A stretch of DNA of 47,637 nucleotides from a virus, in IMG/VR virus record IMGVR_UViG_3300037587_000379, positions 1-47,637 of that record; one strand, 5' to 3'. This document shows positions 2,894 through 42,882 of the stretch, in pieces (position 1 is the stretch's first letter; each line of letters begins with the position of its first letter). The translations under genes and the position numbers were made by a program. The notes below the pieces were generated by a model that searched no databases, was not told where the DNA came from, and saw only the letters and a program-made list of their open reading frames with translations.

Positions 2894-3802
2894 TTAAGTA
2901 CACTCACTAGCCCTGTACCTGAGGTACAGTTCCTCCTTGATAGCTAGGGCAGTTACCCTATCCACGTCCATGTGCCCCTTCAGACGCTCCACAAGCAGCT
3001 TTGCAGCTTTCTGGGAGGCTGGTATAGGGTGGAGGCTAAAGTCGCGCATACAGCTTCCTACGAGGTCACAGAAGTATGTCCATGTTATAGAGCAGATGAT
3101 GGCACTAACATCCTGATCATCAGCTGAGAGGGTAACCTCCCCATACATAGTACGAGGGAAGAATGTCCTCATCAGGCCTAGCCCTTCCAGTGTCAGCACC
3201 ACATGCATCGGGCACTGTCCCTGGAAGGCCTTGGCAAATTCACAGAAGAGCCTTGACTTATTGACAGTTCTCAGCATCTCTGAGTTCCTATCTATCGAAG
3301 ACTTAACATCAGCTGATAAGGTAAAGCCTAGCTGTATCAGCCTAGCTGCACGCAGCATCCTGACTGGGTCCTCCATGAACCTCTGGTCCGGCTTGCCTAT
3401 ACATACAACCTCTCTCCGCTCTATATCCTCTAGTCCAGAGAAGGGGTCGATGACCTCTCCCTCGTCCCAGTACAGGGCATTGGCTGTAAAGTCTCGACGA
3501 TACACATCATCTGTCAAGGTACCATACCTGTTCTCTTCATCCCTGAAGGTTACTACCTCTATGATCTGTCCTTGGAAGCACACGTGAGCGATGGGGAAGC
3601 GACGCCCCACGATACGGCTATTGTCAAAGATGTCATGGACCTCCTCTGGAGTGGCATCAGTTGCGATGTCATAGTCCTTCGGTGTCCTCCCTATTAGGGC
3701 ATCCCTAACACAGCCACCAACTAGGTAAGCTTGGTGGTCGTACCGCTTTAATCTCCGTATGACCTTACCCACATTGAGGGGCACTACAAGTTGTAACTTC
3801 AT
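2894..3802 (-). CDS. Poly(A) polymerase / tRNA nucleotidyltransferase family protein, poly(A)-polymerase type
   Basis: Class II nucleotidyltransferase that adds nucleotides to RNA 3' ends without a template. Visible motifs: LVGGCVRDAL (residues 27-36), catalytic DxD D43/D45 in KDYDIAT, RRDFTANAL (102-110), and the template-pocket helix DPVRMLRAARL (135-145). Residues 64-74 read IVGRRFPIAHV, matching the signature [LIV][LIV]G[RK][RK]Fx[LIV]h[HQL][LIV] published as separating bacterial poly(A) polymerases from CCA-adding enzymes. At 302 aa it is shorter than PcnB (about 465) and lacks the basic C-terminus. The start is set by AGGGAGG 6 nt before ATGAAG; a 17-codon upstream extension is less likely. 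It lies next to the primase-helicase in the replication arm. A CCA-adding role cannot be excluded. Confidence 0.85.
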   Translation of the reverse strand: MKLQLVVPLNVGKVIRRLKRYDHQAYLVGGCVRDALIGRTPKDYDIATDATPEEVHDIFDNSRIVGRRFPIAHVCFQGQIIEVVTFRDEENRYGTLTDDVYRRDFTANALYWDEGEVIDPFSGLEDIERREVVCIGKPDQRFMEDPVRMLRAARLIQLGFTLSADVKSSIDRNSEMLRTVNKSRLFCEFAKAFQGQCPMHVVLTLEGLGLMRTFFPRTMYGEVTLSADDQDVSAIICSITWTYFCDLVGSCMRDFSLHPIPASQKAAKLLVERLKGHMDVDRVTALAIKEELYLRYRASECT

Positions 3803-3859
3803 ACTGTGCCTCCCTATGTAGAATGTACTTAAGGGTGTGGCCGGTTGCGCCACACAGAT

Positions 3860-8077: not shown

Positions 8078-8819
8078 ACAGTTTATTCTCCTCTGCATTA
8101 AAGTAACCACACTCATCGACCTCACAGTCAATGTCACCATCAATATCAATCCTTGAGTTTCTAGCATGGTGGCCCTCACACATGGGACATATGTACCCTA
8201 TATGCTCAGGCTCTACCTCTTGTACCTCCTTCTCTTCCTGTACCTCCAACATGTGGGTACCCTCAGCGTTAGTAACGGAGCCAGCGAAGTCATCGAAGAT
8301 ACATACATCTGCCTCCATCTGAGACCTGAGGGTCTCCAGCTCATCCTGCATCCCACGGAAGTCAGCGATGCCAAGCACACACGCAACATTAGAACAGGGC
8401 TCCTCCTCATTCGCCCTCTCATGGTCACACTCAGGACAGAATGTCCGGTGACCTAGCTCTTCTGGGAAGTAATGCTTCAGCCTAGCTTGACTGTACAGCC
8501 ACCCACCAGGTGCATAGATCTCACCAATTATGGGATGCTGTTGGTATTTCTCCTTGAACCCATCCAAGTTTGAAGCTTGAACAAAGGTGTTGAAGTGCCC
8601 ATCTGTATCAGCCCCCTCGATGGCCTCTTCCTGGAAGGAGTTTACAACGGCGACGCCATCCTCCTTACTCATGGCATTCGCCAAGGCTCGCACCTTACTA
8701 GCGCTGACATCCATGTGCACCATCGTTATCTGAACCATCTGTATGGGCTGGTCAAAGTCTGGCAACTGCCTACCGAACATCCCATACAGCCAGTCGGGGA
8801 ACATACTATTATTTTGCAT
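8064..8819 (-). CDS. 251-aa zinc-binding protein
   Basis: Unrecognised. Two zinc-type clusters are visible: CPECDHER...CSNVAC near the middle and CPMCEGHH...CEVDEC near the C-terminus, separated by an acidic, Glu/Val-rich linker. The N-terminal third is a mixed-fold domain (QMVQITMVHMDVSASKVRAL). A modular zinc protein in a phage early region often targets host RNA polymerase or nucleic acid; that is inference only. Confidence 0.6.
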   Translation of the reverse strand: MQNNSMFPDWLYGMFGRQLPDFDQPIQMVQITMVHMDVSASKVRALANAMSKEDGVAVVNSFQEEAIEGADTDGHFNTFVQASNLDGFKEKYQQHPIIGEIYAPGGWLYSQARLKHYFPEELGHRTFCPECDHERANEEEPCSNVACVLGIADFRGMQDELETLRSQMEADVCIFDDFAGSVTNAEGTHMLEVQEEKEVQEVEPEHIGYICPMCEGHHARNSRIDIDGDIDCEVDECGYFNAEENKLYDYG

Positions 8820-13946: not shown

Positions 13947-14342
13947 CTACCTAGTTTTATGTGTCCTAGCTGACACACAATCGTCAATTACCCCAAAGGA
14001 TACATGCGTGATAGCTGCATCATGTATCTCAGTGACTGTGAAGCCTGCCTGATATAGGGCAAGGATCATCTGCGTCTGTAAATTGCTGAGCTTAGCAGCA
14101 TGGTGGTCCTCTCCGCAAATTTTACCGGATAGGCCAAGCTTCTTTATACGATGGTATATACTACCTGTGGATCTCTCTATCATGATGGCGATAGTAGAAG
14201 CCGCCTTCTTACCTGCATACTCTTTAAGTATGGCGTCCTCTTCTGCCGTGTAAAACCTATGGGTATCACCCTCAACCCACCGCTTCACACCTTGCGTGCC
14301 TACCAAGGTACCAATAATCTTTTCATCATTGCTTTCTATCAT
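13947..14342 (-). CDS. Myb/HTH DNA-binding protein, candidate regulator
   Basis: Two DNA-binding-like units: residues 30-72 (FYTAEEDAILKEYAGKK...RSTGSIYHRIKKLGLS) look like the Myb/SANT-type domain of phage regulators, and residues 84-126 (AKLSNLQTQMILALYQAGF...TEIHDAAITHVS) like the HTH found after HNH nucleases, here without a nuclease. Three copies of the palindrome GTCCTAGGAC lie 26-161 bp upstream of the start, making this the best candidate for their cognate, autoregulated factor. That link is inference. Confidence 0.65.
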   Translation of the reverse strand: MIESNDEKIIGTLVGTQGVKRWVEGDTHRFYTAEEDAILKEYAGKKAASTIAIMIERSTGSIYHRIKKLGLSGKICGEDHHAAKLSNLQTQMILALYQAGFTVTEIHDAAITHVSFGVIDDCVSARTHKTR

Positions 14343-14367: not shown

Positions 14368-14379
14368 TGTCCTAGGACA
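14368..14379. promoter_or_regulatory. Palindromic operator-like site 1
   Basis: Perfect 12-bp palindrome TGTCCTAGGACA followed by GGG, 26 bp upstream of the HTH gene start. One of six copies between 14.3 and 18.2 kb. Confidence 0.65.
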
Positions 14380-14419
14380 GGGTCAAGTAGAAGGCAGACC
14401 CCGCCCCTTGATAATGGGT

Positions 14420-14431
14420 TGTCCTAGGACA
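14420..14431. promoter_or_regulatory. Palindromic operator-like site 2
   Basis: Perfect TGTCCTAGGACA, 52 bp (about five helical turns) from site 1, in the gap upstream of the HTH gene. Confidence 0.65.
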
Positions 14432-14491
14432 GAGAGAAGTGCGCAACAGACTCTCAGTGAAAGCCTGCTCTTTGTAGCACACAGTTCTCCC

Positions 14492-14503
14492 CGTCCTAGG
14501 ACA
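14492..14503. promoter_or_regulatory. Palindromic operator-like site 3
   Basis: CGTCCTAGGACA (core GTCCTAGGAC perfect), 72 bp (about seven turns) from site 2 and just past the stop of the 59-aa gene. Confidence 0.6.
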
Positions 14504-14532
14504 GGATGCCAGTGAGTGGTAGCCCACTGGTC

Positions 14533-14712
14533 TTATGTTTTAAGCCTTGGGTGCAAGCCATTGGCAAAGCAATACTGTTTCCAAGCATGGGCGACACTCA
14601 CCCCTCTACCAGTAACACCTGTCCCCCTTACACACCAACATGAAAACGGTACATTATAATATAGGTGTGGATTATCGTTTTTCTTCTTGTCAACATGATA
14701 CCCCGTCATCAT
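14533..14712 (-). CDS. 59-aa hypothetical protein
   Basis: MMTGYHVDKKKNDNPHLYYN, then a PFSCWC cluster and WKQYCFANG; probably a small metal- or nucleic-acid-binding protein, unrecognised. AGGGAGT lies 6 nt before the first ATG. The sequence TATAAT within it looks like a -10 box but is in the coding part. Confidence 0.55.
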   Translation of the reverse strand: MMTGYHVDKKKNDNPHLYYNVPFSCWCVRGTGVTGRGVSVAHAWKQYCFANGLHPRLKT

Positions 14713-14772
14713 TTTTACTCCCTCTCTTTAGTACACTATCCATACCTACCCATTACAGGTAGGTACAGGCAG

Positions 14773-14791
14773 CATACTGCACAGCAGTATG
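14773..14791. terminator. 8-bp stem-loop after the 229-aa gene
   Basis: CATACTGC and GCAGTATG around a 3-nt loop, starting right at the stop codon of the 229-aa gene. No U-run follows on the leftward transcript, so it may be an RNA-processing or stability hairpin rather than a true terminator. Confidence 0.4.
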
Positions 14792-14792
14792 T

Positions 14793-15482
14793 CTAGGCCG
14801 TCAGACGCTCGCCTACCTTGCCCCTCAGCTCCGTTAGAGTGGCAGTGATACGCTTCTGCACACCATCCAGCATCTCGGCAGCCCGCTCCGGATTAATACC
14901 GCGCAGTTCCTTATACTGCTCGGCAATCTTTGACAGCTGCACATCTATCTCATCTGTCGGATCACCGCTGGTATTACCCTGTGCATCAGGCTGCGCAGCT
15001 TGGTAGTCAGCCAGCAATTGCGCCTCATCGGCTAACTTCTTATCCTTCTTAGCCTTAGAGTTAGCCTTAGCTACCTTACTACACGTATCCTCCGTGCGTA
15101 GGTCGGCGCAGCGCTCCATACCACCCAGAATTTTGCGCTTGGCCGCATCGATAGGCTTTGGCATCTCCTGCACTCGGCACTTACCGGCTTCTTCACTGGT
15201 AAGATATACCTCGTACTTGTTGAGCGTGCCAATGAAGTCACGCTTCACCGCCTCCCGATTCTCCGGCACCATTGGGAAACCACCATTGCGATCAATGCAT
15301 TCAAGAGCACGGCTGTGAATATACGCAGCAATACTATTCTCAACGCCATCGGTCGCATCCTGCACACGCATCAGATGCACGGCAGTACGGCAGAACTCCT
15401 TATACTCCATGCCCTTAATCTGTTCGCTGGTCTTACCAACCACGTCCAGTTCGAGCACTTTATCACCTACTTTCAGTTCCAT
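14793..15482 (-). CDS. 229-aa helical protein
   Basis: Unrecognised, soluble, mostly alpha-helical. N-terminal MELKVGDKVLELDVVGKTSE, a basic central segment (KVAKANSKAKKDKKLADEAQ) and a coiled-coil-like C-terminus with a heptad pattern (LDGVQKRITATLTELRGKVG). Ideal SD GGAGGTGACAT. The gene is bracketed by two perfect hairpins (14773-14791 and 15509-15535), which suggests a stabilised, highly expressed message. Confidence 0.65.
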   Translation of the reverse strand: MELKVGDKVLELDVVGKTSEQIKGMEYKEFCRTAVHLMRVQDATDGVENSIAAYIHSRALECIDRNGGFPMVPENREAVKRDFIGTLNKYEVYLTSEEAGKCRVQEMPKPIDAAKRKILGGMERCADLRTEDTCSKVAKANSKAKKDKKLADEAQLLADYQAAQPDAQGNTSGDPTDEIDVQLSKIAEQYKELRGINPERAAEMLDGVQKRITATLTELRGKVGERLTA

Positions 15483-15508
15483 ATGTCACCTCCACATTAG
15501 GACTATGG

Positions 15509-15535
15509 ATGTGAACACAGGGAGTGTGCTCACAT
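15509..15535. ncRNA. 11-bp stem-loop in the leader of the 229-aa gene
   Basis: ATGTGA...TCACAT extends inward to 11 pairs (one G-U) around a 5-nt loop. It lies 27 bp upstream of the 229-aa start. It could be a 5' stabiliser or attenuator. The arms resemble half-sites of a CRP box, but the spacing of 15 is wrong for CRP. Confidence 0.4.
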
Positions 15536-15566
15536 TGATAGACCCAATAGGTGCATAGTGGTAATC

Positions 15567-15851
15567 CTAATCCATACGCAAGTCTCCTATCACCTGTAGC
15601 ACCGGCTTCAACTCATCTAACCATAGCTGGAAGGGTTTACCCTGCCGCTCTAGCATACGTGTCTTCACACCTGCCGTTATCACAGCTACCTTCTCATCCA
15701 TGTGACCTAAAGATTGAGAGCGCCACTCACTACCCTCTACCTTGTAACATATCACATACTTACTAGGCTTGATAGTCCTTACATCGAGTGAAGTGAGGGC
15801 TATTGGTGGCACCTCTCTCCTCTCGCTTGTTCCTTTCTTTACCTTTACCAT
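15567..15851 (-). CDS. 94-aa hypothetical protein
   Basis: Unrecognised. MVKVKKGTSERREVPPIALT, then a beta-rich middle (KYVICYKVEGSEW) and an amphipathic C-terminus (FQLWLDELKPVLQVIGDL). Start from GGAGG 8 nt upstream of ATGGTAAAG. It overlaps the cysteine-rich gene upstream by about 90 nt in another frame. Confidence 0.55.
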   Translation of the reverse strand: MVKVKKGTSERREVPPIALTSLDVRTIKPSKYVICYKVEGSEWRSQSLGHMDEKVAVITAGVKTRMLERQGKPFQLWLDELKPVLQVIGDLRMD

Positions 15852-16140
15852 TAGCTGTACCTCCATGCTCAGGACATGACCACACGCCTATAACGGGGCC
15901 ACCACTGACACTCTTATCCTTCTTTATCTTGGTATTAGTACAGCCCTCGTGCCTGCACTTATATACCATCTTACCCACGACATCTCTCCCGCCATAACAA
16001 ATCAGCTTTGGTATCTGGCACAGTCCTTGAGTTCTTCCACAGACATCGCACCAGCTTGAGCCAGAACACTCGGCGTACCTTTTCCTTATACGGGCACAGT
16101 TTTTCTGCACTCCGCAAGGAATCACTGAGATTAACTGCAT
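15763..16140 (-). CDS. Cysteine-rich zinc-binding protein, about 125 aa
   Basis: Cys pairs WCDVCG and then CRHEGC...CPEHGG look like one or two zinc fingers; the C-terminus is basic (KGKERNKREERGAT). The start is uncertain: ATG 16140 has no clear SD and the region overlaps the 68-aa frame. A shorter form from MVYKCRHEGC is possible. Either way, the finger at residues 60-95 is the best-supported part. Confidence 0.5.
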   Translation of the reverse strand: MQLISVIPCGVQKNCARIRKRYAECSGSSWCDVCGRTQGLCQIPKLICYGGRDVVGKMVYKCRHEGCTNTKIKKDKSVSGGPVIGVWSCPEHGGTANGKGKERNKREERGATNSPHFTRCKDYQA

Positions 16141-16177
16141 CTCTCGCACTACGTACTATCATATGAGATATATGCAC
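15971..16177 (-). CDS. 68-aa basic protein with GTG start
   Basis: GGAGGTGAA five bases before GTG gives a textbook initiation site directly after the stop of the 72-aa gene. The protein (VHISHMIVRSARDAVNLSDS...) is basic, with a CLWKNSR segment. It shares 170 nt with the cysteine-rich frame, so either this is a true overlap or a frameshift joins the two. Confidence 0.45.
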   Translation of the reverse strand: MHISHMIVRSARDAVNLSDSLRSAEKLCPYKEKVRRVFWLKLVRCLWKNSRTVPDTKADLLWRERCRG

Positions 16178-16187
16178 TCTTCACCTC

Positions 16188-16406
16188 CTAAGCACAGTCC
16201 TTACCTATGCTCGCTATTTCACGGGCCGCATCAGGCGTTAGCTGTACTACAGTCTCAGCTTGCACCGCCATCATGGCAGCTCGCTCCAGTACCTTCCAAG
16301 GACAGCGAGAGTGCACCATATTACTAAAGCCTACGATACTAAACTCACCGCCACTATTCTTATTCGGATAGGTAACCAGTACCTTCCGCTTCAGATGCCC
16401 ATGCAT
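16188..16406 (-). CDS. 72-aa hypothetical protein
   Basis: Unrecognised. MHGHLKRKVLVTYPNKNSGG, then a beta pattern and a helical C-terminus (LTPDAAREIASIGKDC). Strong SD GGAGGTGTGCT. Head of a tight cluster with the 68-aa gene. Confidence 0.6.
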   Translation of the reverse strand: MHGHLKRKVLVTYPNKNSGGEFSIVGFSNMVHSRCPWKVLERAAMMAVQAETVVQLTPDAAREIASIGKDCA

Positions 16407-16426
16407 AGCACACCTCCGTTGTTTAT

Positions 16427-16621
16427 TTATCTGATCTCATCAATCCATAGCTGTGGCCCCAATAGCGCATGAAGACAATGAGACACATGCCTATCCCAAT
16501 AGAGGTAGGCACGCATAGATACAGCAAAAGGAAAAGCTGTACCCCTCGTCTGCACTGACCAATACGCTCGTCGTAAGCGTGCTATCCTTAGCGCACGCTT
16601 CACGGCATCATCATCATACAT
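16427..16621 (-). CDS. 64-aa basic protein
   Basis: Unrecognised. MYDDDAVKRALRIARLRRAY has a basic amphipathic helix, then an aromatic C-terminus. Its ATG overlaps the stop of the upstream gene (CATGTATGA) and GAGGTG lies upstream. Confidence 0.55.
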   Translation of the reverse strand: MYDDDAVKRALRIARLRRAYWSVQTRGTAFPFAVSMRAYLYWDRHVSHCLHALLGPQLWIDEIR

Positions 16622-16805
16622 GATGCACCTCACAACTATCACAAGAAAAGCCTGTGGTATCTACTATCCGCGTGACTTCACCATGCTCACCCATATATAG
16701 CAGTTCACAGAAGGCTAATACATCCTTCTTATCTGTCCCATATATGCCAACAGAGAAACCACTAGCAAAAACTACTTTAAAGAGAATCACCTTGTTCCTC
16801 CCCAT
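16614..16805 (-). CDS. 63-aa hypothetical protein
   Basis: Unrecognised. MGRNKVILFKVVFASGFSVG, a beta-strand-rich start, ends in GFSCDSCEVHHV, a CxxC plus two His that could bind zinc. GGAGAATGTATCAG precedes the ATG; an in-frame ATG three codons upstream is an alternative start. Confidence 0.5.
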   Translation of the reverse strand: MGRNKVILFKVVFASGFSVGIYGTDKKDVLAFCELLYMGEHGEVTRIVDTTGFSCDSCEVHHV

Positions 16806-16893
16806 CTGATACATTCTCCATAATACAGGCTTCACCTGTACTATAGGCAACGCACCCCTTGCAGTGGATTGGCGGTCCTAGTTCAGTGCTCAT
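16777..16893 (-). CDS. Possible 38-aa peptide with CxxC
   Basis: MSTELGPPIHCKGCVAYSTG, ending GEEQGDSL, in a different frame from the gene that follows. The nearest GGAG is far upstream, so initiation is doubtful. Confidence 0.3.
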   Translation of the reverse strand: MSTELGPPIHCKGCVAYSTGEACIMENVSDGEEQGDSL

Positions 16894-16955
16894 GGCAGAA
16901 TCACATCATACTCACACTCCTCTCATTTCCGGCACTTTCAATGCACTCATGATCA

Positions 16956-16967
16956 CGTCCTAGGACA
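16956..16967. promoter_or_regulatory. Palindromic operator-like site 4
   Basis: CGTCCTAGGACA followed by GGG, between the 51-aa membrane gene and the possible 38-aa peptide. Confidence 0.6.
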
Positions 16968-16987
16968 GGGCGTGACACATCAGCACA

Positions 16988-17143
16988 CTACTCACCAACC
17001 TCAAGTAAACCCCCACTAATAATCGCTGTACCTAATCCCGCTGCTAGTAGCGCCCATCCTGTACCCCACAATGTGTAGACGCCAATGGAAAAAAAGACAA
17101 CAGCTACAATAGCAAGCACCCAGCCTACTAAACGTATACTCAT
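16988..17143 (-). CDS. 51-aa membrane protein with two helices
   Basis: MSIRLVGWVLAIVAVVFFSI then WALLAAGLGTAIISGGLLEV: a helical hairpin. SD AGAGGAG 7 nt before the ATG. It is flanked by palindromic sites on both sides (16956 and 17205), so it may be under the same regulator. Function unknown. Confidence 0.6.
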   Translation of the reverse strand: MSIRLVGWVLAIVAVVFFSIGVYTLWGTGWALLAAGLGTAIISGGLLEVGE

Positions 17144-17204
17144 ATCACACTCCTCTTATTGTCTCCCATTTAGTTAAGTCAATTTACTCGGGCACCCTAT
17201 CCCG

Positions 17205-17216
17205 TGTCCTAGGACA
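17205..17216. promoter_or_regulatory. Palindromic operator-like site 5
   Basis: Perfect TGTCCTAGGACA in the gap between the 140-aa gene and the 51-aa membrane gene. Confidence 0.6.
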
Positions 17217-17236
17217 AAGGCACCCTGATAAAGGGA

Positions 17237-17659
17237 CTAACCCTGCTCAATAGGTGAGCTTAAGACAGCAGCCCCCTTGCTGTTAGGCGAGCGATACCAT
17301 AGCTGCATCTTGCACATCATCTGCATCCGCTTGCTGCCAGTATCAAGCTCAACATCATTACTGTTGTAGCCATAGGTAGCTTTTTCTATGCCACATTTAG
17401 CCATGACCATCTCGCTGATAGCCTCGCCCAATTCACTGATGTCCCGGCCAGCCTTAGTCAATACACGCTTAGCCATTGTTACCTGGTAGGCTAGTGCTTC
17501 GCGACGACGGCAATTAAAGCCGTTGACCATTGCCCTACTTGGGCAAGCTGGCAGACCTGAACCAGAATCAAAGCTATTCCTACCGATCTCTCGGTCAGTG
17601 ATTACATGACGGGGCACTAGCTCGATATTCACACTACTACCCGGACTGTGTGAGTACAT
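17237..17659 (-). CDS. 140-aa hypothetical protein, first gene of the leftward early arm
   Basis: Unrecognised. MYSHSPGSSVNIELVPRHVI, a central Arg-rich segment (NGFNCRRREALAYQ), a helical part (ISELGEAISEMVMAKCG) and several Met/Cys near the end. Excellent SD TAGGAGG. As the first leftward gene beside the divergent control region it is probably transcribed earliest and may act on host functions (inference). Confidence 0.65.
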   Translation of the reverse strand: MYSHSPGSSVNIELVPRHVITDREIGRNSFDSGSGLPACPSRAMVNGFNCRRREALAYQVTMAKRVLTKAGRDISELGEAISEMVMAKCGIEKATYGYNSNDVELDTGSKRMQMMCKMQLWYRSPNSKGAAVLSSPIEQG

Positions 17660-17856
17660 AGCCTATACCTCCTATATCGTGCCAACAGCCAAAGCGGCGT
17701 CGGGAACGTCGTAGTAGTCAGTGGATCTGAATCTCCAAAGTGGATGAATTTGCTTAAAGGCATTGCATGGCCTGTGCCAAGTCGTGTAAGTGTATGAAAT
17801 GTATAGGGAAAGGAGCCATATTCCAGAAGGGTATAAGCATAGAACCAAGTGCAAAA

Positions 17857-17873
17857 TGTAAAGAAAGCTGACA
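17857..17873 (+). repeat. 17-bp direct repeat, copy 1
   Basis: TGTAAAGAAAGCTGACA, identical to 17977-17993. It ends in CTGACA, close to a -35 box, and 35-55 bp later both copies have GTGTCA followed by TTATAYGC, so a larger diverged module is duplicated. Confidence 0.7.
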
Positions 17874-17976
17874 CATTTGAGGCAATATCAAAGAGTTAGG
17901 GTGTCAGGTTATTATACGCATAGATGTCAATATAAGGTGAAGTGTAGCAGTATCAAGGGCTTAGGTCATGCCGAGG

Positions 17977-17993
17977 TGTAAAGAAAGCTGACA
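17977..17993 (+). repeat. 17-bp direct repeat, copy 2 (possible rightward promoter)
   Basis: Identical to copy 1. Here CTGACA is followed after 17-18 bp by TTATATG, a passable sigma-70 promoter toward the late genes. The copy 1 context lacks a -10 at that distance. Confidence 0.55.
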
Positions 17994-18050
17994 GTCGCAG
18001 TGTCACCTGTTTATATGCGTGAAGTAGCACGTTGACGGTGTGTTACAGGT

Positions 18051-18186
18051 ATGCAATAAGTATGCCGGCATGATACTTGCTAATGCATAGAACGTGCCAG
18101 TGTACCATGGCATAGAGTATGCATCATGCAAAGAGTGTGCCAAGTCCTTGTCCTAGGACAGCAGCTTATGCAAGGAGTGTGCCAAG
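18051..18186 (+). repeat. Iteron-like array around a palindrome
   Basis: ATGCAAAGAGTGTGCCAAG at 18126-18144 and ATGCAAGGAGTGTGCCAAG at 18168-18186 differ by one base; weaker copies start at 18083 (14/19) and 18051 (13/19). Spacings are 32, 43 and 42 bp. The two best copies bracket the palindrome at 18149-18160 symmetrically. Confidence 0.6.
18149..18160. promoter_or_regulatory. Palindromic operator-like site 6
   Basis: Perfect TGTCCTAGGACA between two near-identical 19-bp repeats in the divergent region. It is the only one of the six sites near the late operon. Confidence 0.65.
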
Positions 18187-18500: not shown

Positions 18501-18522
18501 GGTCTACTATAGTATATAGACC
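18501..18522. repeat. Inverted repeat with TATA core
   Basis: GGTCTA and TAGACC enclose CTATAGTATA; the inner TACTATAGTA is itself a palindrome. A TA-rich run follows to 18536. It could be a promoter/operator for the late operon. Confidence 0.4.
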
Positions 18523-29047: not shown

Positions 29048-30951
29048 TGCCAAGAGTAGCAGGTAGCAAGAACTTCTTTAACTTTGTAGGCGGGATGAAC
29101 ACTGATTCAAATCCCTTAGCCTCACCAGAAGGTACTGCTAGACTCCTTAAGAATGTAGACTTAGAAGTCACCGGAGAAATTCAGCGCCGCCTCGGCCTGG
29201 ACTTTGAAAGTGGCTTTGTTTTTTCTACAGATACATTTACCGAAGTAGATACACAGAATAAGTACATCTCGATGGATGAGTGGACCTCTGCTAATGATGA
29301 TTTGACAGAGAATTTCTACGTAGTACGGGTAGGGCTGAAGCTCTACTTCTTTGACATGGTATCCTCTAACCCATCTGCAACTCTTCGTGGAACTATTACC
29401 CTTACAGGTAATACAGACACTACTATCATTCTCCAGAAAGAAGATATCCAGTTTACTGCTGGCAAGGGGGTACTCTTTGCAACAGGTAGAACATTGAAGC
29501 CCTCCTATATAACCTTTGATGGTGCAAGCACCTTCACACAAGTCATTATTGATATGGAGATACGTGACTTTGAGGGTGTAGATGATGGGCTTGTGCTAGA
29601 GGATAGACCAACCACCCTATCTGTTCTTCACCAGTACAACTTGAAGAACCAAGGGTGGATAGCAACTAATTATGACCTAGTCAAGACAGGGCTAGGTGTC
29701 TTCCCGAGTAATTCAGACATACAAGTACTCGGGAAAGATAGCTCAGATGTCTTCACAGCTGCCCTACTAGATAAACAGTTCTTCGGAAACTCCCAAGCTC
29801 CACGTGGACATTTTATTATAGATGCCTTTGATAATGATAGAGCGGCTGTATCAGGTATAGCTCTAGGCACAGATGCTACAACTATAAAGAGACCACTAGC
29901 CTCAACATTCTTCTCTAGTAGGATATGGTATGCAGGTCCTAATGGTAGAGTTCTCTTCTCCCCTATACTGGAGACACTTAGCAAGGCTGGTAAATGCTTT
30001 CAAGAACAAGACCCCACAGCTGAAGAGTTCAATGAACTGCTTGCAACTGATGGTGGTGTGATCAGTATCCCAGAGATGGGGGATGCTCTCCAAATAGAAT
30101 CAGTAGCTAACGGTGTGTTAGTCTTCTCACCCTCTGGTGTATGGCACATAAGTGGGGGAGTAGAGAACTTCTCAGCTATAAACTTTCAAGTACAGCAGAT
30201 AACAAATGTGGGTCTTTCGGGATCACGCTCTGTAGTACGTGCAGAGGACAGACTCTACTACTGGGCGGATGGTGGTATATATCTTATCTCTGTTGAAGAG
30301 ATCTCTGGTGCTTTCCAAGCAGTCAATATCTCTGAAGGTGTTATACGCAGAGACTTCTCACATATAGCCCAAGCTGCTAAGATCCTTGCCATAGGTACAT
30401 ACGACAGAGAGAGCAAGTTGATCTACTGGGCCTACAACAGAGACCAGTCCATTGGTACTACTGTCAATGAGTCTGACTTTGATACCATGCTCATATACAA
30501 CATCTCCCTAAATGCTTTCTATACTTATAGCATCTCTAATATAACAGATGGTGGTATAACCTCTTTCATTGGTGGCTTACGTAAGAGTACAGCTAGGGCC
30601 CTAGGGTCAGGTTCGTCTAATGTTACAGTTGGCGGAGCCATCGTGACAGTTAGTGCAGTAAATGTCATAGTCACAGAGAATTTCCAGGATGCCTCAGTCT
30701 TAGGGTTGAAGGTCTTGATGTTCTCCCCACAGAGTGGTGTCTTTAAGTTTACACTAGGCGACTTCTCCTCACGATCTTTCTTTGACTGGGAGACCCAAGA
30801 CTCTACAGGTGTAGACTATAGCAGTGTTATAGAGACGGGGTATGGAACACTTGGTGATGCTATGAGAGATAAGCAGGCAACTCACCTCTTTACATTCCTA
30901 AGCAGGGGCCGCTCTGCAATTGATACAGATAACATCTTTACAGGTACGTAG
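29047..30951 (+). CDS. Tail tubular protein B (nozzle)
   Basis: T7 gp12-type nozzle, 634 aa (T7 794). Characteristic N-terminus NFFNFVGGMNTDSNPLASPE with QRRLGLDFE, a beta-propeller-like middle (VLVFSPSGVWHISGGVENFS; RLYYWADGGIYLIS) and a C-terminal beta region. It forms the distal tail tube to which the fibres attach. Confidence 0.85.
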   Translation: MPRVAGSKNFFNFVGGMNTDSNPLASPEGTARLLKNVDLEVTGEIQRRLGLDFESGFVFSTDTFTEVDTQNKYISMDEWTSANDDLTENFYVVRVGLKLYFFDMVSSNPSATLRGTITLTGNTDTTIILQKEDIQFTAGKGVLFATGRTLKPSYITFDGASTFTQVIIDMEIRDFEGVDDGLVLEDRPTTLSVLHQYNLKNQGWIATNYDLVKTGLGVFPSNSDIQVLGKDSSDVFTAALLDKQFFGNSQAPRGHFIIDAFDNDRAAVSGIALGTDATTIKRPLASTFFSSRIWYAGPNGRVLFSPILETLSKAGKCFQEQDPTAEEFNELLATDGGVISIPEMGDALQIESVANGVLVFSPSGVWHISGGVENFSAINFQVQQITNVGLSGSRSVVRAEDRLYYWADGGIYLISVEEISGAFQAVNISEGVIRRDFSHIAQAAKILAIGTYDRESKLIYWAYNRDQSIGTTVNESDFDTMLIYNISLNAFYTYSISNITDGGITSFIGGLRKSTARALGSGSSNVTVGGAIVTVSAVNVIVTENFQDASVLGLKVLMFSPQSGVFKFTLGDFSSRSFFDWETQDSTGVDYSSVIETGYGTLGDAMRDKQATHLFTFLSRGRSAIDTDNIFTGT

Positions 30952-31257
30952 ATGACACATACAGTAGCTACAGATAAGACAACAGATCATAGCTGCCTAG
31001 TAACCGCTAGGTGGGAGTGGTCAGATGACGTAAAGTCAGGACGCTTCTCAGAGCAGCAGCAAGCATACAAGAGACAAAGGGTGTACATCCCAGAGGATGC
31101 AGCAGACCCCTTTGACGATGGCTTCCCAGTAGTAATGACAAAGCTTAAGCTACGAGGAAAGGGTAAGGCCCTTCAGCTGAAGTTTGAGTCAGAGAGTGGT
31201 AAGGATTTCGTACTCTATGGATGGGCAATTCCGTTTACAGGTACAGGTGTAGCATGA
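30952..31257 (+). CDS. 101-aa tail-associated protein
   Basis: Unrecognised. Beta-rich; it contains SCLVTARWEWSDDVKSGRFS and ends LQLKFESESGKDFVLYGW..., like the small nozzle-tip or collar domains next to gp12 homologues. Possibly the split-off C-terminus of tail tubular B. Its stop overlaps the GNAT start. Confidence 0.55.
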   Translation: MTHTVATDKTTDHSCLVTARWEWSDDVKSGRFSEQQQAYKRQRVYIPEDAADPFDDGFPVVMTKLKLRGKGKALQLKFESESGKDFVLYGWAIPFTGTGVA

Positions 31258-31715
31258 TAACATACCAAAAAGATACTGTCGAAAATGTATTCAGAGATAT
31301 TGGTGATACATTCATTAAGCATCATGAGGAAGTCGAGAGCTATACCAAAGACGTTCCTTTAGACATAGATAGAGAGCAGTATGAAGCTCTAGAGGCAGTA
31401 GGCGCGCTGCACGCAGTATCTGTAAGAGATGATGGTGAGCTAATAGGGTATTATGTTTCGATGGTCATGCCCCACCCACACCACAAAGGCAGCCTATTTG
31501 CTGTCAATGATATAATTTATATAGATCCTGAGTATAGAAAGTCAGGTGTAGCCGCAGAGATGATACTCTTTGCAGAGAATGAACTACGGGGGGCAGGCGT
31601 AGACGTTATGACATTCAGTATGAAAGCCGCCTACCCTTTTAAGAGTCTAGCTAAGCATGTAGGCTTTGAAGAAACGGAAATTGTGTACTCTAAGTACATA
31701 GGAGATAATGGATAA
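31254..31715 (+). CDS. GNAT-fold protein (T7 gp13-like position)
   Basis: 153 aa with an N-acetyltransferase pattern: VRDDGELIGYYVSMV, the acceptor strand FAVNDIIYIDPEYRKSGVAA (the Q/RxxGxG/A-type acetyl-CoA loop, here RKSGVAA) and AENELRGAGVDVMTFS. Start at MITYQKD by ATGA overlap with the preceding gene. RNAP-less and T7-like phages often carry such a gene before the internal virion proteins, where it may be structural; the acetylation target is unknown. Confidence 0.75.
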   Translation: MITYQKDTVENVFRDIGDTFIKHHEEVESYTKDVPLDIDREQYEALEAVGALHAVSVRDDGELIGYYVSMVMPHPHHKGSLFAVNDIIYIDPEYRKSGVAAEMILFAENELRGAGVDVMTFSMKAAYPFKSLAKHVGFEETEIVYSKYIGDNG

Positions 31716-39086: not shown

Positions 39087-39874
39087 TGGCAGGCTTCCAA
39101 ACAGTTATTATTGGGGACACAACCTATGAGTACCCAGCAGAGATGAGAGACAGCCGACTTTTTGACCTTCTCAGGGTAGAGCTAGATAGTGCAAACATGT
39201 CAGCACCCAGCAGGAATACCCTCGATATTGAAAAAGAGGATGTGCCGCGGGGGGTTAGGAATAATAACCCAGGCAATATAGACTTCAGGGAAGACACTGT
39301 TTGGGAAGGTCAGTTAGGCAGAGAAAAAAACAAGGGTCGCTTTGTTCGCTTTGATACACCAGAAAAGGGTGTGCGTGCGATGACTAAGATCCTGCAAACT
39401 TACAATGATCGTGGACAAAGAACTCTAAAAGATATCATCTTCGGTATACCAGACAAAGATGGTGTACGCCAGATGGGTTGGGCACCAGAAGTGGAGAACG
39501 ACTCCCAAGGGTATGTAGATTTCCTAGTTGACAGGACTGGTTTTAAGCAGGGGGAACCTCTGGATCTTACAGACCACGAGACACTGCTAAAAGTCTTGTC
39601 AGGTATCATAAGATTTGAGAACGGCACTGATCCTTACAGTGATACCACTATACTGCAAGGTATAGATGAAGCTATAGGTAAGCCTCTAGATCTAGAGGAA
39701 TTGTTACGAGAGGAAGAGCTTATAAGCACCCTCTCAGATACACCAGCTGAAGAAGACAAGGGCGTTACAAAGAGTCCAGGTATTGAGCGTTTAGAACCTG
39801 GCTTCTTTCAAAGAGATAATGGCACCTTCTTCGAGGTGACTCCAGACGGAGGCATAGTCGAACATGGTGCGTAG
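39086..39874 (+). CDS. Virion protein with peptidoglycan-active-type domain
   Basis: 262 aa. The motif RGVRNNNPGNIDFREDTVWE (about residues 54-73) and the following FDTPEKGVRAMTKILQTYND are typical of virion-associated, lysozyme-like phage proteins that process peptidoglycan at entry. The short N-terminal part is beta-rich, the C-terminal part acidic. No other endolysin is recognised in the genome, so this domain may also serve lysis. Catalytic residue assignment is not possible from this alone. Confidence 0.65.
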   Translation: MAGFQTVIIGDTTYEYPAEMRDSRLFDLLRVELDSANMSAPSRNTLDIEKEDVPRGVRNNNPGNIDFREDTVWEGQLGREKNKGRFVRFDTPEKGVRAMTKILQTYNDRGQRTLKDIIFGIPDKDGVRQMGWAPEVENDSQGYVDFLVDRTGFKQGEPLDLTDHETLLKVLSGIIRFENGTDPYSDTTILQGIDEAIGKPLDLEELLREEELISTLSDTPAEEDKGVTKSPGIERLEPGFFQRDNGTFFEVTPDGGIVEHGA

Positions 39875-40340
39875 AGTAAGTGCACTCCCCTCTAGGCTGC
39901 TAAAAGGAGCGGATGGAGAGCGGGGTGACAGAGGTGCGAGAGGTGAGCAGGGTGCACAAGGGTTGCAGGGTGCAGCAGGTGCAAAAGGATCCCAAGGGAC
40001 ACAAGGAGGTTCGGGACCTGTAGGCCACTCCCCAGGGCATGAGGTACAGAACGGTGAGATCCGCTTCTTACAGCCTGATGGTCAGTGGGGAGAGTGGATA
40101 TCCATAACTAGTCCCTCTGGTGGGGGCAAAATATCCACCAATACTTATACCGCAGTTACGACTGCATCTTTTACCATACCTAGGCGTACGCTAGACCTAG
40201 GTATAAATATTTTTGGGGTAAGGGTAACCCCAGCAACAATACTCTTACCCAAGAAAGTGGACAAGCGCTCTATCATCGTCATAAAGGACGAGGTAGGGGA
40301 TGCTGGCACTGATAACATAACAATCCAAGTAGAGAATTAA
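39864..40340 (+). CDS. Collagen-like fibre protein (158 aa)
   Basis: About 12-14 Gly-X-Y triplets (GADGERGDRGARGEQGAQG...) from residue 15 to about 57, then a beta-rich trimerisation/tip domain. Such collagen-like segments make trimeric phage fibres or adhesins. The start overlaps the preceding gene (ATGGTGCG). Confidence 0.8.
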   Translation: MVRRVSALPSRLLKGADGERGDRGARGEQGAQGLQGAAGAKGSQGTQGGSGPVGHSPGHEVQNGEIRFLQPDGQWGEWISITSPSGGGKISTNTYTAVTTASFTIPRRTLDLGINIFGVRVTPATILLPKKVDKRSIIVIKDEVGDAGTDNITIQVEN

Positions 40341-41592: not shown

Positions 41593-42882
41593 ATGGGACA
41601 GATTCTCCTACCCAAGCAGTACCACCCAGACTTTGCACAGCCAGGCAAGAAGCCTATAGGGCTAGTAGAAGTTGACTGGGCTAACCCACTGACAAAAGAT
41701 CTTGAGATAGCTCTCTTACCAGCAATGTGGGTAGGTAAGAACTTAGCTGATATGGGTAATTCTCCTGTACAGCCAGCAATCAATTCAGGTGCCAATACCA
41801 AAGGTCAGTTTGTAGCTAAAACTACTGCTGATGATGATGGCTTCTCTCTAGTTAACCCCAGCCTTGGTAGTCAGAATCGTACTGTCATGCTGGGGCATAT
41901 CAAAGCTGCGGCAGTAACTAATAATGCATTAATAGCATCAGGTACTGTTGCATCTGGACAGAGATGGCAGCTGGCCTATGTAAGTGGTAGCAGCTTACAT
42001 ATAGGAGTAACTTCTGGCGGGTACCAGTCCTCCCTAACACCAGTAGTTGGTGAGTTTTCTATATCTGGGATTAAATTTACCGGGACTACTTTAGCGGACC
42101 ATACGCTTTTTCTAAACGGCGTTTTCGAGAACGCAACAGGTACAAGGGTAATAAATACCACCGGAGCTTCCTATGTAGTAATGGGAGAGGGTCTATCTCA
42201 ATCAACAACCGGCGTTACCGATAAACTCTTTTTCTACTACCATTGGAATCGGGCTTTATCTGATGCAGAGATGCTATCAATTGAGCAAGACCCTTATCAA
42301 CTCTTCAAACCAACCACACCCCAAACCTACACCTTCCCAGCTGCAGCTGCTGGTATAAACATTAATGCTACTACTGATACCCTCATTATAAGTGAGCAAG
42401 GTGCTGTAGTACAGGCAGATGTGGACATAAGTATAGCTGCAGGGACAGATACACTAGTCATCTCTGAGCAGGGTGCCACTGTACAAGCTGATATAGATAT
42501 ACTTATCAGTGCTACTACAGATACACTGATTATAACAGAGAATGCAGCCACTGTTCAGTCTGACGTAGACATAAATGTGGCCGCAAACTCAGATACCTTA
42601 GTGATATCTGAAAATGCAGCCACGGTAGAGCTGATTACTGGTATTTCAATACTAGCTACTACTGGCTCTTTGATTATCTCTGAGCAGGCAGCTGTAGTTC
42701 AAGCGGATGTGGACATAAGCATAACCGCTGGTGTAGACTCCTTAGTTATCTCTGAGTTACAAGCCTCTATCACTTTAGATATAGGCGTTACAATAGATGG
42801 TTCTTCTAGCGTCATTATGACTGCTAACTTCCAGAGTGAGACGCTCTACTTCAATGGAGAGAATTACTTCACTATTGACTAG
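41593..42882 (+). CDS. Lectin-like tail fibre with 24-aa tandem repeats (429 aa)
   Basis: The N-terminal 40 residues resemble fibre anchors (PKQYHPDFAQPGKKPIGLVE). Residues about 60-240 form a concanavalin/LamG-like sandwich ending RALSDAEMLSIEQDPYQLF, the usual end of this domain in phage fibres. From residue 257, six 24-residue repeats follow (consensus I.A.TDTL[IV]ISE[QN].A.VQADVDI), then a degenerate seventh and a short tip (ETLYFNGENYFTID). The repeats suggest a beta-solenoid shaft that can change length. Last gene of the late operon. Confidence 0.75.
   Translation: MGQILLPKQYHPDFAQPGKKPIGLVEVDWANPLTKDLEIALLPAMWVGKNLADMGNSPVQPAINSGANTKGQFVAKTTADDDGFSLVNPSLGSQNRTVMLGHIKAAAVTNNALIASGTVASGQRWQLAYVSGSSLHIGVTSGGYQSSLTPVVGEFSISGIKFTGTTLADHTLFLNGVFENATGTRVINTTGASYVVMGEGLSQSTTGVTDKLFFYYHWNRALSDAEMLSIEQDPYQLFKPTTPQTYTFPAAAAGININATTDTLIISEQGAVVQADVDISIAAGTDTLVISEQGATVQADIDILISATTDTLIITENAATVQSDVDINVAANSDTLVISENAATVELITGISILATTGSLIISEQAAVVQADVDISITAGVDSLVISELQASITLDIGVTIDGSSSVIMTANFQSETLYFNGENYFTID
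42361..42792 (+). repeat. Six tandem 72-bp units inside the lectin-like fibre gene
   Basis: In-frame repeats of 24 codons, e.g. ACAGATACACTAGTCATCTC-type cores. Units 1, 2, 3 and 5 are closest; 4 and 6 are diverged, so expansion was not recent for all of them. Confidence 0.75.

Follow-up and report, generated by a model that had tools for sequence, protein, structure and literature searches.

Six copies of a palindromic word in the early-control DNA of a Zobellviridae-type virus: a candidate dispersed operator set shared with a mosaic relative

The temperate Streptomyces siphovirus phiC31, whose repressor is known, carries palindromic repressor sites (CIRs) dispersed in early intergenic regions, and the RNase III sites of T7 early transcripts are long hairpins in intergenic leaders which share a structure and not an invariant palindromic word. 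In mycobacteriophage L5 and cluster A one short word recurs in many copies in promoter regions and short intergenic spaces, an arrangement by which a single regulator is believed to affect both initiation and elongation; the sites are 13-bp, asymmetric, oriented with transcription and bound by the monomeric repressor of a temperate phage (PMC9283540). Early transcription of Pseudomonas phage K5 is controlled by the host protein SrpA at a few palindromic intergenic sites in promoter regions, with the degenerate form NTATCN(0,9)GATAN (PMC5945682). The present analysis concerns the 10-bp palindrome GTCCTAGGAC in the virus record IMGVR_UViG_3300037587_000379, which was analysed over its whole length of 47,637 bases (below, the window). 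We lean, by a modest degree, towards reading its copies as a dispersed operator set, that is, as double-stranded DNA sites for one homodimeric regulator of the early segment of a lytic Zobellviridae-type virus, of the same general kind as the L5 stoperators and the phiC31 CIRs, with a new palindromic word that would be exchangeable between lineages.

The window contains exactly six perfect copies, which start at 14369, 14421, 14493, 16957, 17206 and 18150, and no other copy with either no mismatch or one. The first-pass annotation of this DNA had counted six as well, with each start one base too low, and had correctly placed five of them in the early arm and one in the divergent region between iteron-like repeats. 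Its estimate that far less than one copy per 4 kb would be expected by chance also holds: a second-order Markov model of the window predicts 0.03 perfect copies (Poisson p ~1e-12, or ~4e-8 once multiplied by the ~40,000 palindrome forms screened), and six random sites on a circular genome would span <=3.8 kb with a chance of 2e-5. By our own gene calls all six copies are located outside genes, in a segment that is ~38% non-coding. One word in multiple copies, over-represented and limited to control regions, is the pattern of a dispersed phage operator set, and it is the pattern found here.

Copy 1 (14369..14378) lies 27 nt before the ATG of a gene for a 131-amino-acid (131-aa) protein, transcribed from the minus strand. 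Copies 2 (14421..14430) and 3 (14493..14502) form the 3' and 5' arms, respectively, of a leader hairpin, and together with copy 1 they are called the triplet below. Copy 4 (16957..16966) is intergenic and copy 5 (17206..17215) precedes by 63 nt the ATG of a 51-aa membrane open reading frame (16988..17143, minus strand). Copy 6 (18150..18159) is situated in the early/late divergent region between two iteron-like direct repeats ATGCAARGAGTGTGCCAAG (18126-18144 and 18168-18186, plus strand). The 12-mer TGTCCTAGGACA is present at four of the six copies and the other two are flanked by C...A; when the flanks of the window and of the relative described below are taken together, a pyrimidine precedes the core and a purine follows it in 14/15 sites. 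The C..A and T..G forms both occur on one strand, and such symmetric flanks in both orientations are what an orientation-free DNA site would show.

When 2.9 million viral contigs were scanned for pairs of GTCCTAGGAC separated by 36-66 bp, 3 contigs were returned, among them one true relative, IMGVR_UViG_3300048612_000037 (45,486 bp; below, G001). Its primase is 82% and its polymerase 67% identical to those of the window, and its late genes ~40%. In G001 the word occurs six times without a mismatch, always between 41403 and 45205, and there are in addition three one-mismatch copies ATCCTAGGAC at 49, 43339 and 44904, located in the equivalent segment and divergent region. Conservation in related phages, on which the first-pass annotation had let its proposal depend, is thus seen at equivalent positions, namely in the triplet and in the divergent-region site. 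The triplet aligns copy for copy (14493, 14421 and 14369 of the window with 43470, 43394 and 43339 of G001, the last in the form ATCCTAGGAC) and its immediate flanks are conserved: GTCCTAGGACAACCCA at copy 2 is kept in G001, CCTGTCCTAGGACGGGG at copy 3 is common only to G001 in IMG/VR, and the 18-base word around copy 3 occurs in no IMG/VR contig besides the window and G001. The divergent-region site follows the same iteron-like repeat in both genomes, being represented by the ATCCTAGGAC copy at position 49 in G001. The site-by-site alignment demonstrates that the surrounding sequence has diverged while the triplet and the divergent-region sites were kept; the gene after the triplet is itself different, encoding a 77-aa membrane protein in G001 and the 131-aa protein in the window. 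A common strand for the mismatched copies of G001 was also considered, but it holds in just 3/4 and is uninformative.

A different word occupies the same layout, in the same early segment, in GX1 (PQ867844.1; terminase 45%). The 14-bp palindrome GTTGTCTAGACAAC stands there at 41780, 42233, 43759 and 45572; three of these copies are early and intergenic and the remaining one lies in the divergent region. No further copy is present in GX1 within two mismatches. Zobellviridae and portal relatives were also screened for palindrome clusters, and among the genomes fetched GX1 was the only other one with a cluster of this kind; the clusters of ICP2 and VP41s3 look, judged from the sequence pattern alone, like glycine-proline codon repeats. 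G001 is a mosaic, its late genes being 78-86% identical to GX1 and its early genes up to 82% identical to the window. Since it combines GX1-like late genes with window-like early genes and the window's word, the word belongs to, and travels with, the early/replication module and not the structural module. It is possible, although we put it forward with considerable doubt, that each lineage of lytic podoviruses without their own RNA polymerase has a palindromic control word to itself, placed at set points of its early module, that word and putative regulator are swapped as a unit with the early/replication genes, and that the word of the triplet doubles as the base of an RNA hairpin. If so, exchange of word and regulator would create immunity-like specificity groups in virulent phages, and a single element would be at work at the DNA level as well as in RNA.

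The ends of the window share a 127-base overlap and the DNA polymerase gene appears to span the junction, and for these reasons the sequence is read as a circular assembly of ~47.5 kb. Early/replication genes occupy the minus strand from ~17.9 kb leftward across the junction to 43.3 kb, and late genes the plus strand from 18.7 to 42.9 kb. Portal, family-A DNA polymerase and primase/helicase match Zobellviridae, the terminase is most similar to that family, and the gene order of the family is found as well, the structural and the replication genes being on opposite strands. No near match to the window was found in INPHARED; it is a previously unreported virus of Zobellviridae type, not T7-like in the strict sense. 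The first-pass statement that no T7-like operator of this sequence had been described was therefore loose as to the virus; as to the sequence it stands, no description of GTCCTAGGAC as an operator having been found in the open-access literature.

Zobellviridae are podoviruses without their own RNA polymerase. On how they time their genes, the authors who described Klebsiella phage Klyazma go no further than to state that the regulation of transcription has to be of another kind (PMC9960094). As there is no sign of an RNA polymerase of its own in the window virus, it would have to time the host enzyme. In leaders with a ribosome-binding site, the word is separated from the start codon by 27 and 63 nt in the window (14369 and 17206), by 32 and 60 nt in G001, and GTTGTCTAGACAAC by 30, 35 and 49 nt in GX1. 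This placement seems to resemble elongation roadblocks or leader elements more than classical promoter operators. Because the leader sites of the window precede start codons by 27-63 nt and no clear promoter overlaps any site, our best guess is that a bound protein would halt or slow the elongating polymerase, resulting in a stoperator-like early shut-off, and the divergent-region site may act on initiation. We infer that the protein binds as a dimer. The 10-mer is plausibly a workable operator for a protein dimer, since in Streptomyces the same word in triplicate precedes a regulator gene: about 70 actinobacterial loci with the word were found, and in the Streptomyces loci read among them (L109-L188, GTDB genomes), on which the pattern rests, three copies of GTCCTAGGAC with spacings of 18 and 40 bp lie upstream of a GntR/UTRA regulator gene. 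This Streptomyces triplet looks like an undescribed conserved operator.

Several observations weigh against an operator set. The close relative is a single one, G001, and its sites 42481 and 42823, as well as the one-mismatch copy 44904, are inside open reading frames. The triplet is also a conserved RNA hairpin. No convincing sigma70 promoter overlaps the sites, sigma70-like matches being no commoner than in shuffled sequences (the best one, 11/12, is in G001 ~120 nt upstream of site 45205). Finally, no protein partner was found: a GntR domain is absent from the window, G001 and GX1, which also removes the GntR/HutC operator class from consideration, and the neighbouring helix-turn-helix (HTH) gene is not conserved.

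The latter gene (13947..14342, minus strand), located downstream of the triplet, encodes the 131-aa DNA-binding protein, which is D5-like (PHROG 323, E 1e-11) and is a candidate regulator in the window phage only. The first-pass annotation had proposed that this Myb/HTH protein controls its own synthesis. Its gene does start 27 nt downstream of the copy at 14369, but no homologue is present in G001, which has the same operators, or in GX1, and it was rejected on this ground as a conserved autoregulator; in G001 its place is taken by two unrelated proteins, of 166 and 189 aa, neither of which matched a known family. The single-sequence AlphaFold model of the protein (pLDDT 35) was unusable. What survives of the proposed regulon is the phage-specific set of sites, confined to early control DNA and conserved in G001. 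The 229-aa early gene adjoining the triplet (14793..15482, minus strand) has a homologue in G001 that has diverged (27% identity) and occupies the corresponding position, but it was rejected as a regulator, the counterpart in GX1 being a weak, low-probability match and the predicted fold being of low confidence. The partner of the sites may come from the host, or it may be encoded by the phage and belong to no known family.

The word could instead act in RNA, with copies in early leaders pairing mutually or forming small CUAG-loop hairpins upstream of ribosome-binding sites, and so serve processing (RNase III-like), attenuation or translational control. The hairpin of the triplet argues for this. 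It consists of 84 nt with 36 bp in the window (14420..14503, minus strand), with palindrome copies 2 and 3 as its base, and of 88 nt with 36 bp in G001, where the order of stems and bulges is the same and the spacer sequence is different. When the palindromes are kept constant, none of 500 shuffled spacers folds as well as the real one (z -6.0 in the window, -5.0 in G001), ~6/14 equivalent stem pairs differ on both sides between the two genomes, as expected of compensatory changes, and the transcript strand of the triplet folds far better than the opposite strand. On these three grounds the leader of the triplet very probably does fold into this RNA structure; a conserved leader hairpin made of two operator copies is unusual and can be tested. 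It also bears on the first-pass suggestion that the 52- and 72-bp spacings of the triplet reflect whole helical turns. This argument fails, because the spacings in G001 are 55 and 76 bp and the 72-bp one is accounted for by the hairpin.

The GX1 site 43761, also in a structured leader (z -6.2), further favours a role in RNA. However, only this site and the triplet stand out: most single copies are at background level in 120-nt windows centred on the sites, so neither structure at every site nor an RNase III-type class, with a long conserved hairpin at each, describes the set. Pairing of copies 2 and 1 is unsupported, the 2:1 spacer folding no better than shuffles, which disposes of a switch between 3:2 and 2:1 hairpins. 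Divergent-region and in-gene copies have no obvious role in RNA, and an identical, perfectly palindromic 10-mer in all copies exceeds the needs of pairing. An Rfam search gave nothing relevant. What stays constant throughout the set is the word and not an RNA structure, and we regard action in RNA as a rather unlikely but serious explanation.

It is less likely still that a host-encoded regulator or nucleoid protein binds the sites and is exploited by the phage, the window virus and G001 sharing a host and GX1 having another. The sites are not explained by any DNA-binding protein conserved among the phages, and there is a precedent in host SrpA, which binds a palindrome upstream of the RNA polymerase gene of phage K5 (PMC5945682). 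Moreover, in the apparently unrelated viral contig G003 the early/late divergent region contains the word twice, at a distance of 53 bp. Against this, the word tracks the phage early/replication module, and word pairs in unrelated contigs recur at about the chance rate. The two copies of G003 (L011) are at 30081 and 30134, accompanied by GTCCTAG half-copies, and the region precedes a terminase-small-subunit-like gene.

That the sites constitute a replication origin or a DNA-structure system, such as initiator-binding iterons, and not a transcription control seems very improbable. Copy 6 does lie between iteron-like repeats beside an AT-rich stretch, likewise in G001, and in the unrelated contig L010 three copies (8677-8805) are inside a putative replication-initiator gene that is followed by a DnaB-like helicase gene. 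Five of the six copies, however, are scattered along the early operon over 2.8 kb, either alone or at distances of 52-72 bp and mostly just upstream of genes, whereas iterons are normally tandem. The L010 copies are possible origin repeats in their own right. An origin by chance, or as a remnant of some unrelated element (a mobile or CRISPR-like repeat, for instance), is hardly credible: the 10-mer does occur elsewhere in other contexts, among them the repeats of a CRISPR-like array in contigs of Thiotrichales and Piscirickettsiaceae, but two diverged phages each give p ~1e-12 for the same segment, G001 contradicts such an origin, and just 10-12 bp are common to the copies, with no longer element. 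In that array (L135 6053-6814 and L138 5751-5966, Piscirickettsiaceae/Thiotrichales) a 35-nt repeat ends in GTCCTAGGAC; mimicry of the CRISPR repeat was rejected, as the likeness does not extend beyond the 10-mer and none of the array spacers matches these phages.

Other features of the window may be mentioned. The AT-rich divergent region holds a 22-bp imperfect inverted repeat GGTCTACTATAGTATATAGACC (18501-18522), and TGTAAAGAAAGCTGACA is present in two copies, at 17857 and 17977. A gene at 2894-3853 (minus strand) encodes a tRNA nucleotidyltransferase / poly(A) polymerase head-domain protein with a counterpart in G001 (55% identity). A GNAT acetyltransferase gene (31221-31715, plus strand) is located among virion-protein genes, and an acyltransferase gene is annotated at a similar place in Vibrio Zobellviridae. 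Near the end of the late genes, two genes encode a collagen-like protein with Gly-X-Y repeats and a protein in which units of the TDTLIISEQ type recur (39864-40340 and 41593-42882, both plus strand).

If the copies of GTCCTAGGAC are indeed a dispersed operator set, groups defined by operator specificity, as known from temperate phages, may exist among virulent phages too, and a conserved word that is replaced by another one in a sister lineage would provide a direct handle for pulling out the regulator, phage- or host-encoded. Among the known systems, the set resembles the L5 stoperators in being a multi-copy short word in control and intergenic DNA. It differs from them in being a 10-12-bp perfect palindrome restricted to the early segment, in a phage in which no lysogeny gene was identified and no repressor was found; it is not of the L5 class, since that site is asymmetric and oriented and this one is palindromic, with both flank orientations on one strand. 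The SrpA sites of K5 are likewise palindromic intergenic phage sites, but their word is different, they are bound by a host protein and they are few. The long leader hairpin is reminiscent of the T7 RNase III sites, although in the window only the triplet forms one. The Streptomyces loci have the identical 10-bp word three times before a gene, in contrast with spacings of 18 and 40 instead of 52 and 72 bp, an unrelated genome context and a GntR protein that the phages lack; this likeness is presumably convergent. With the phiC31 CIRs the set shares early dispersed palindromes, the sequence of which is different.

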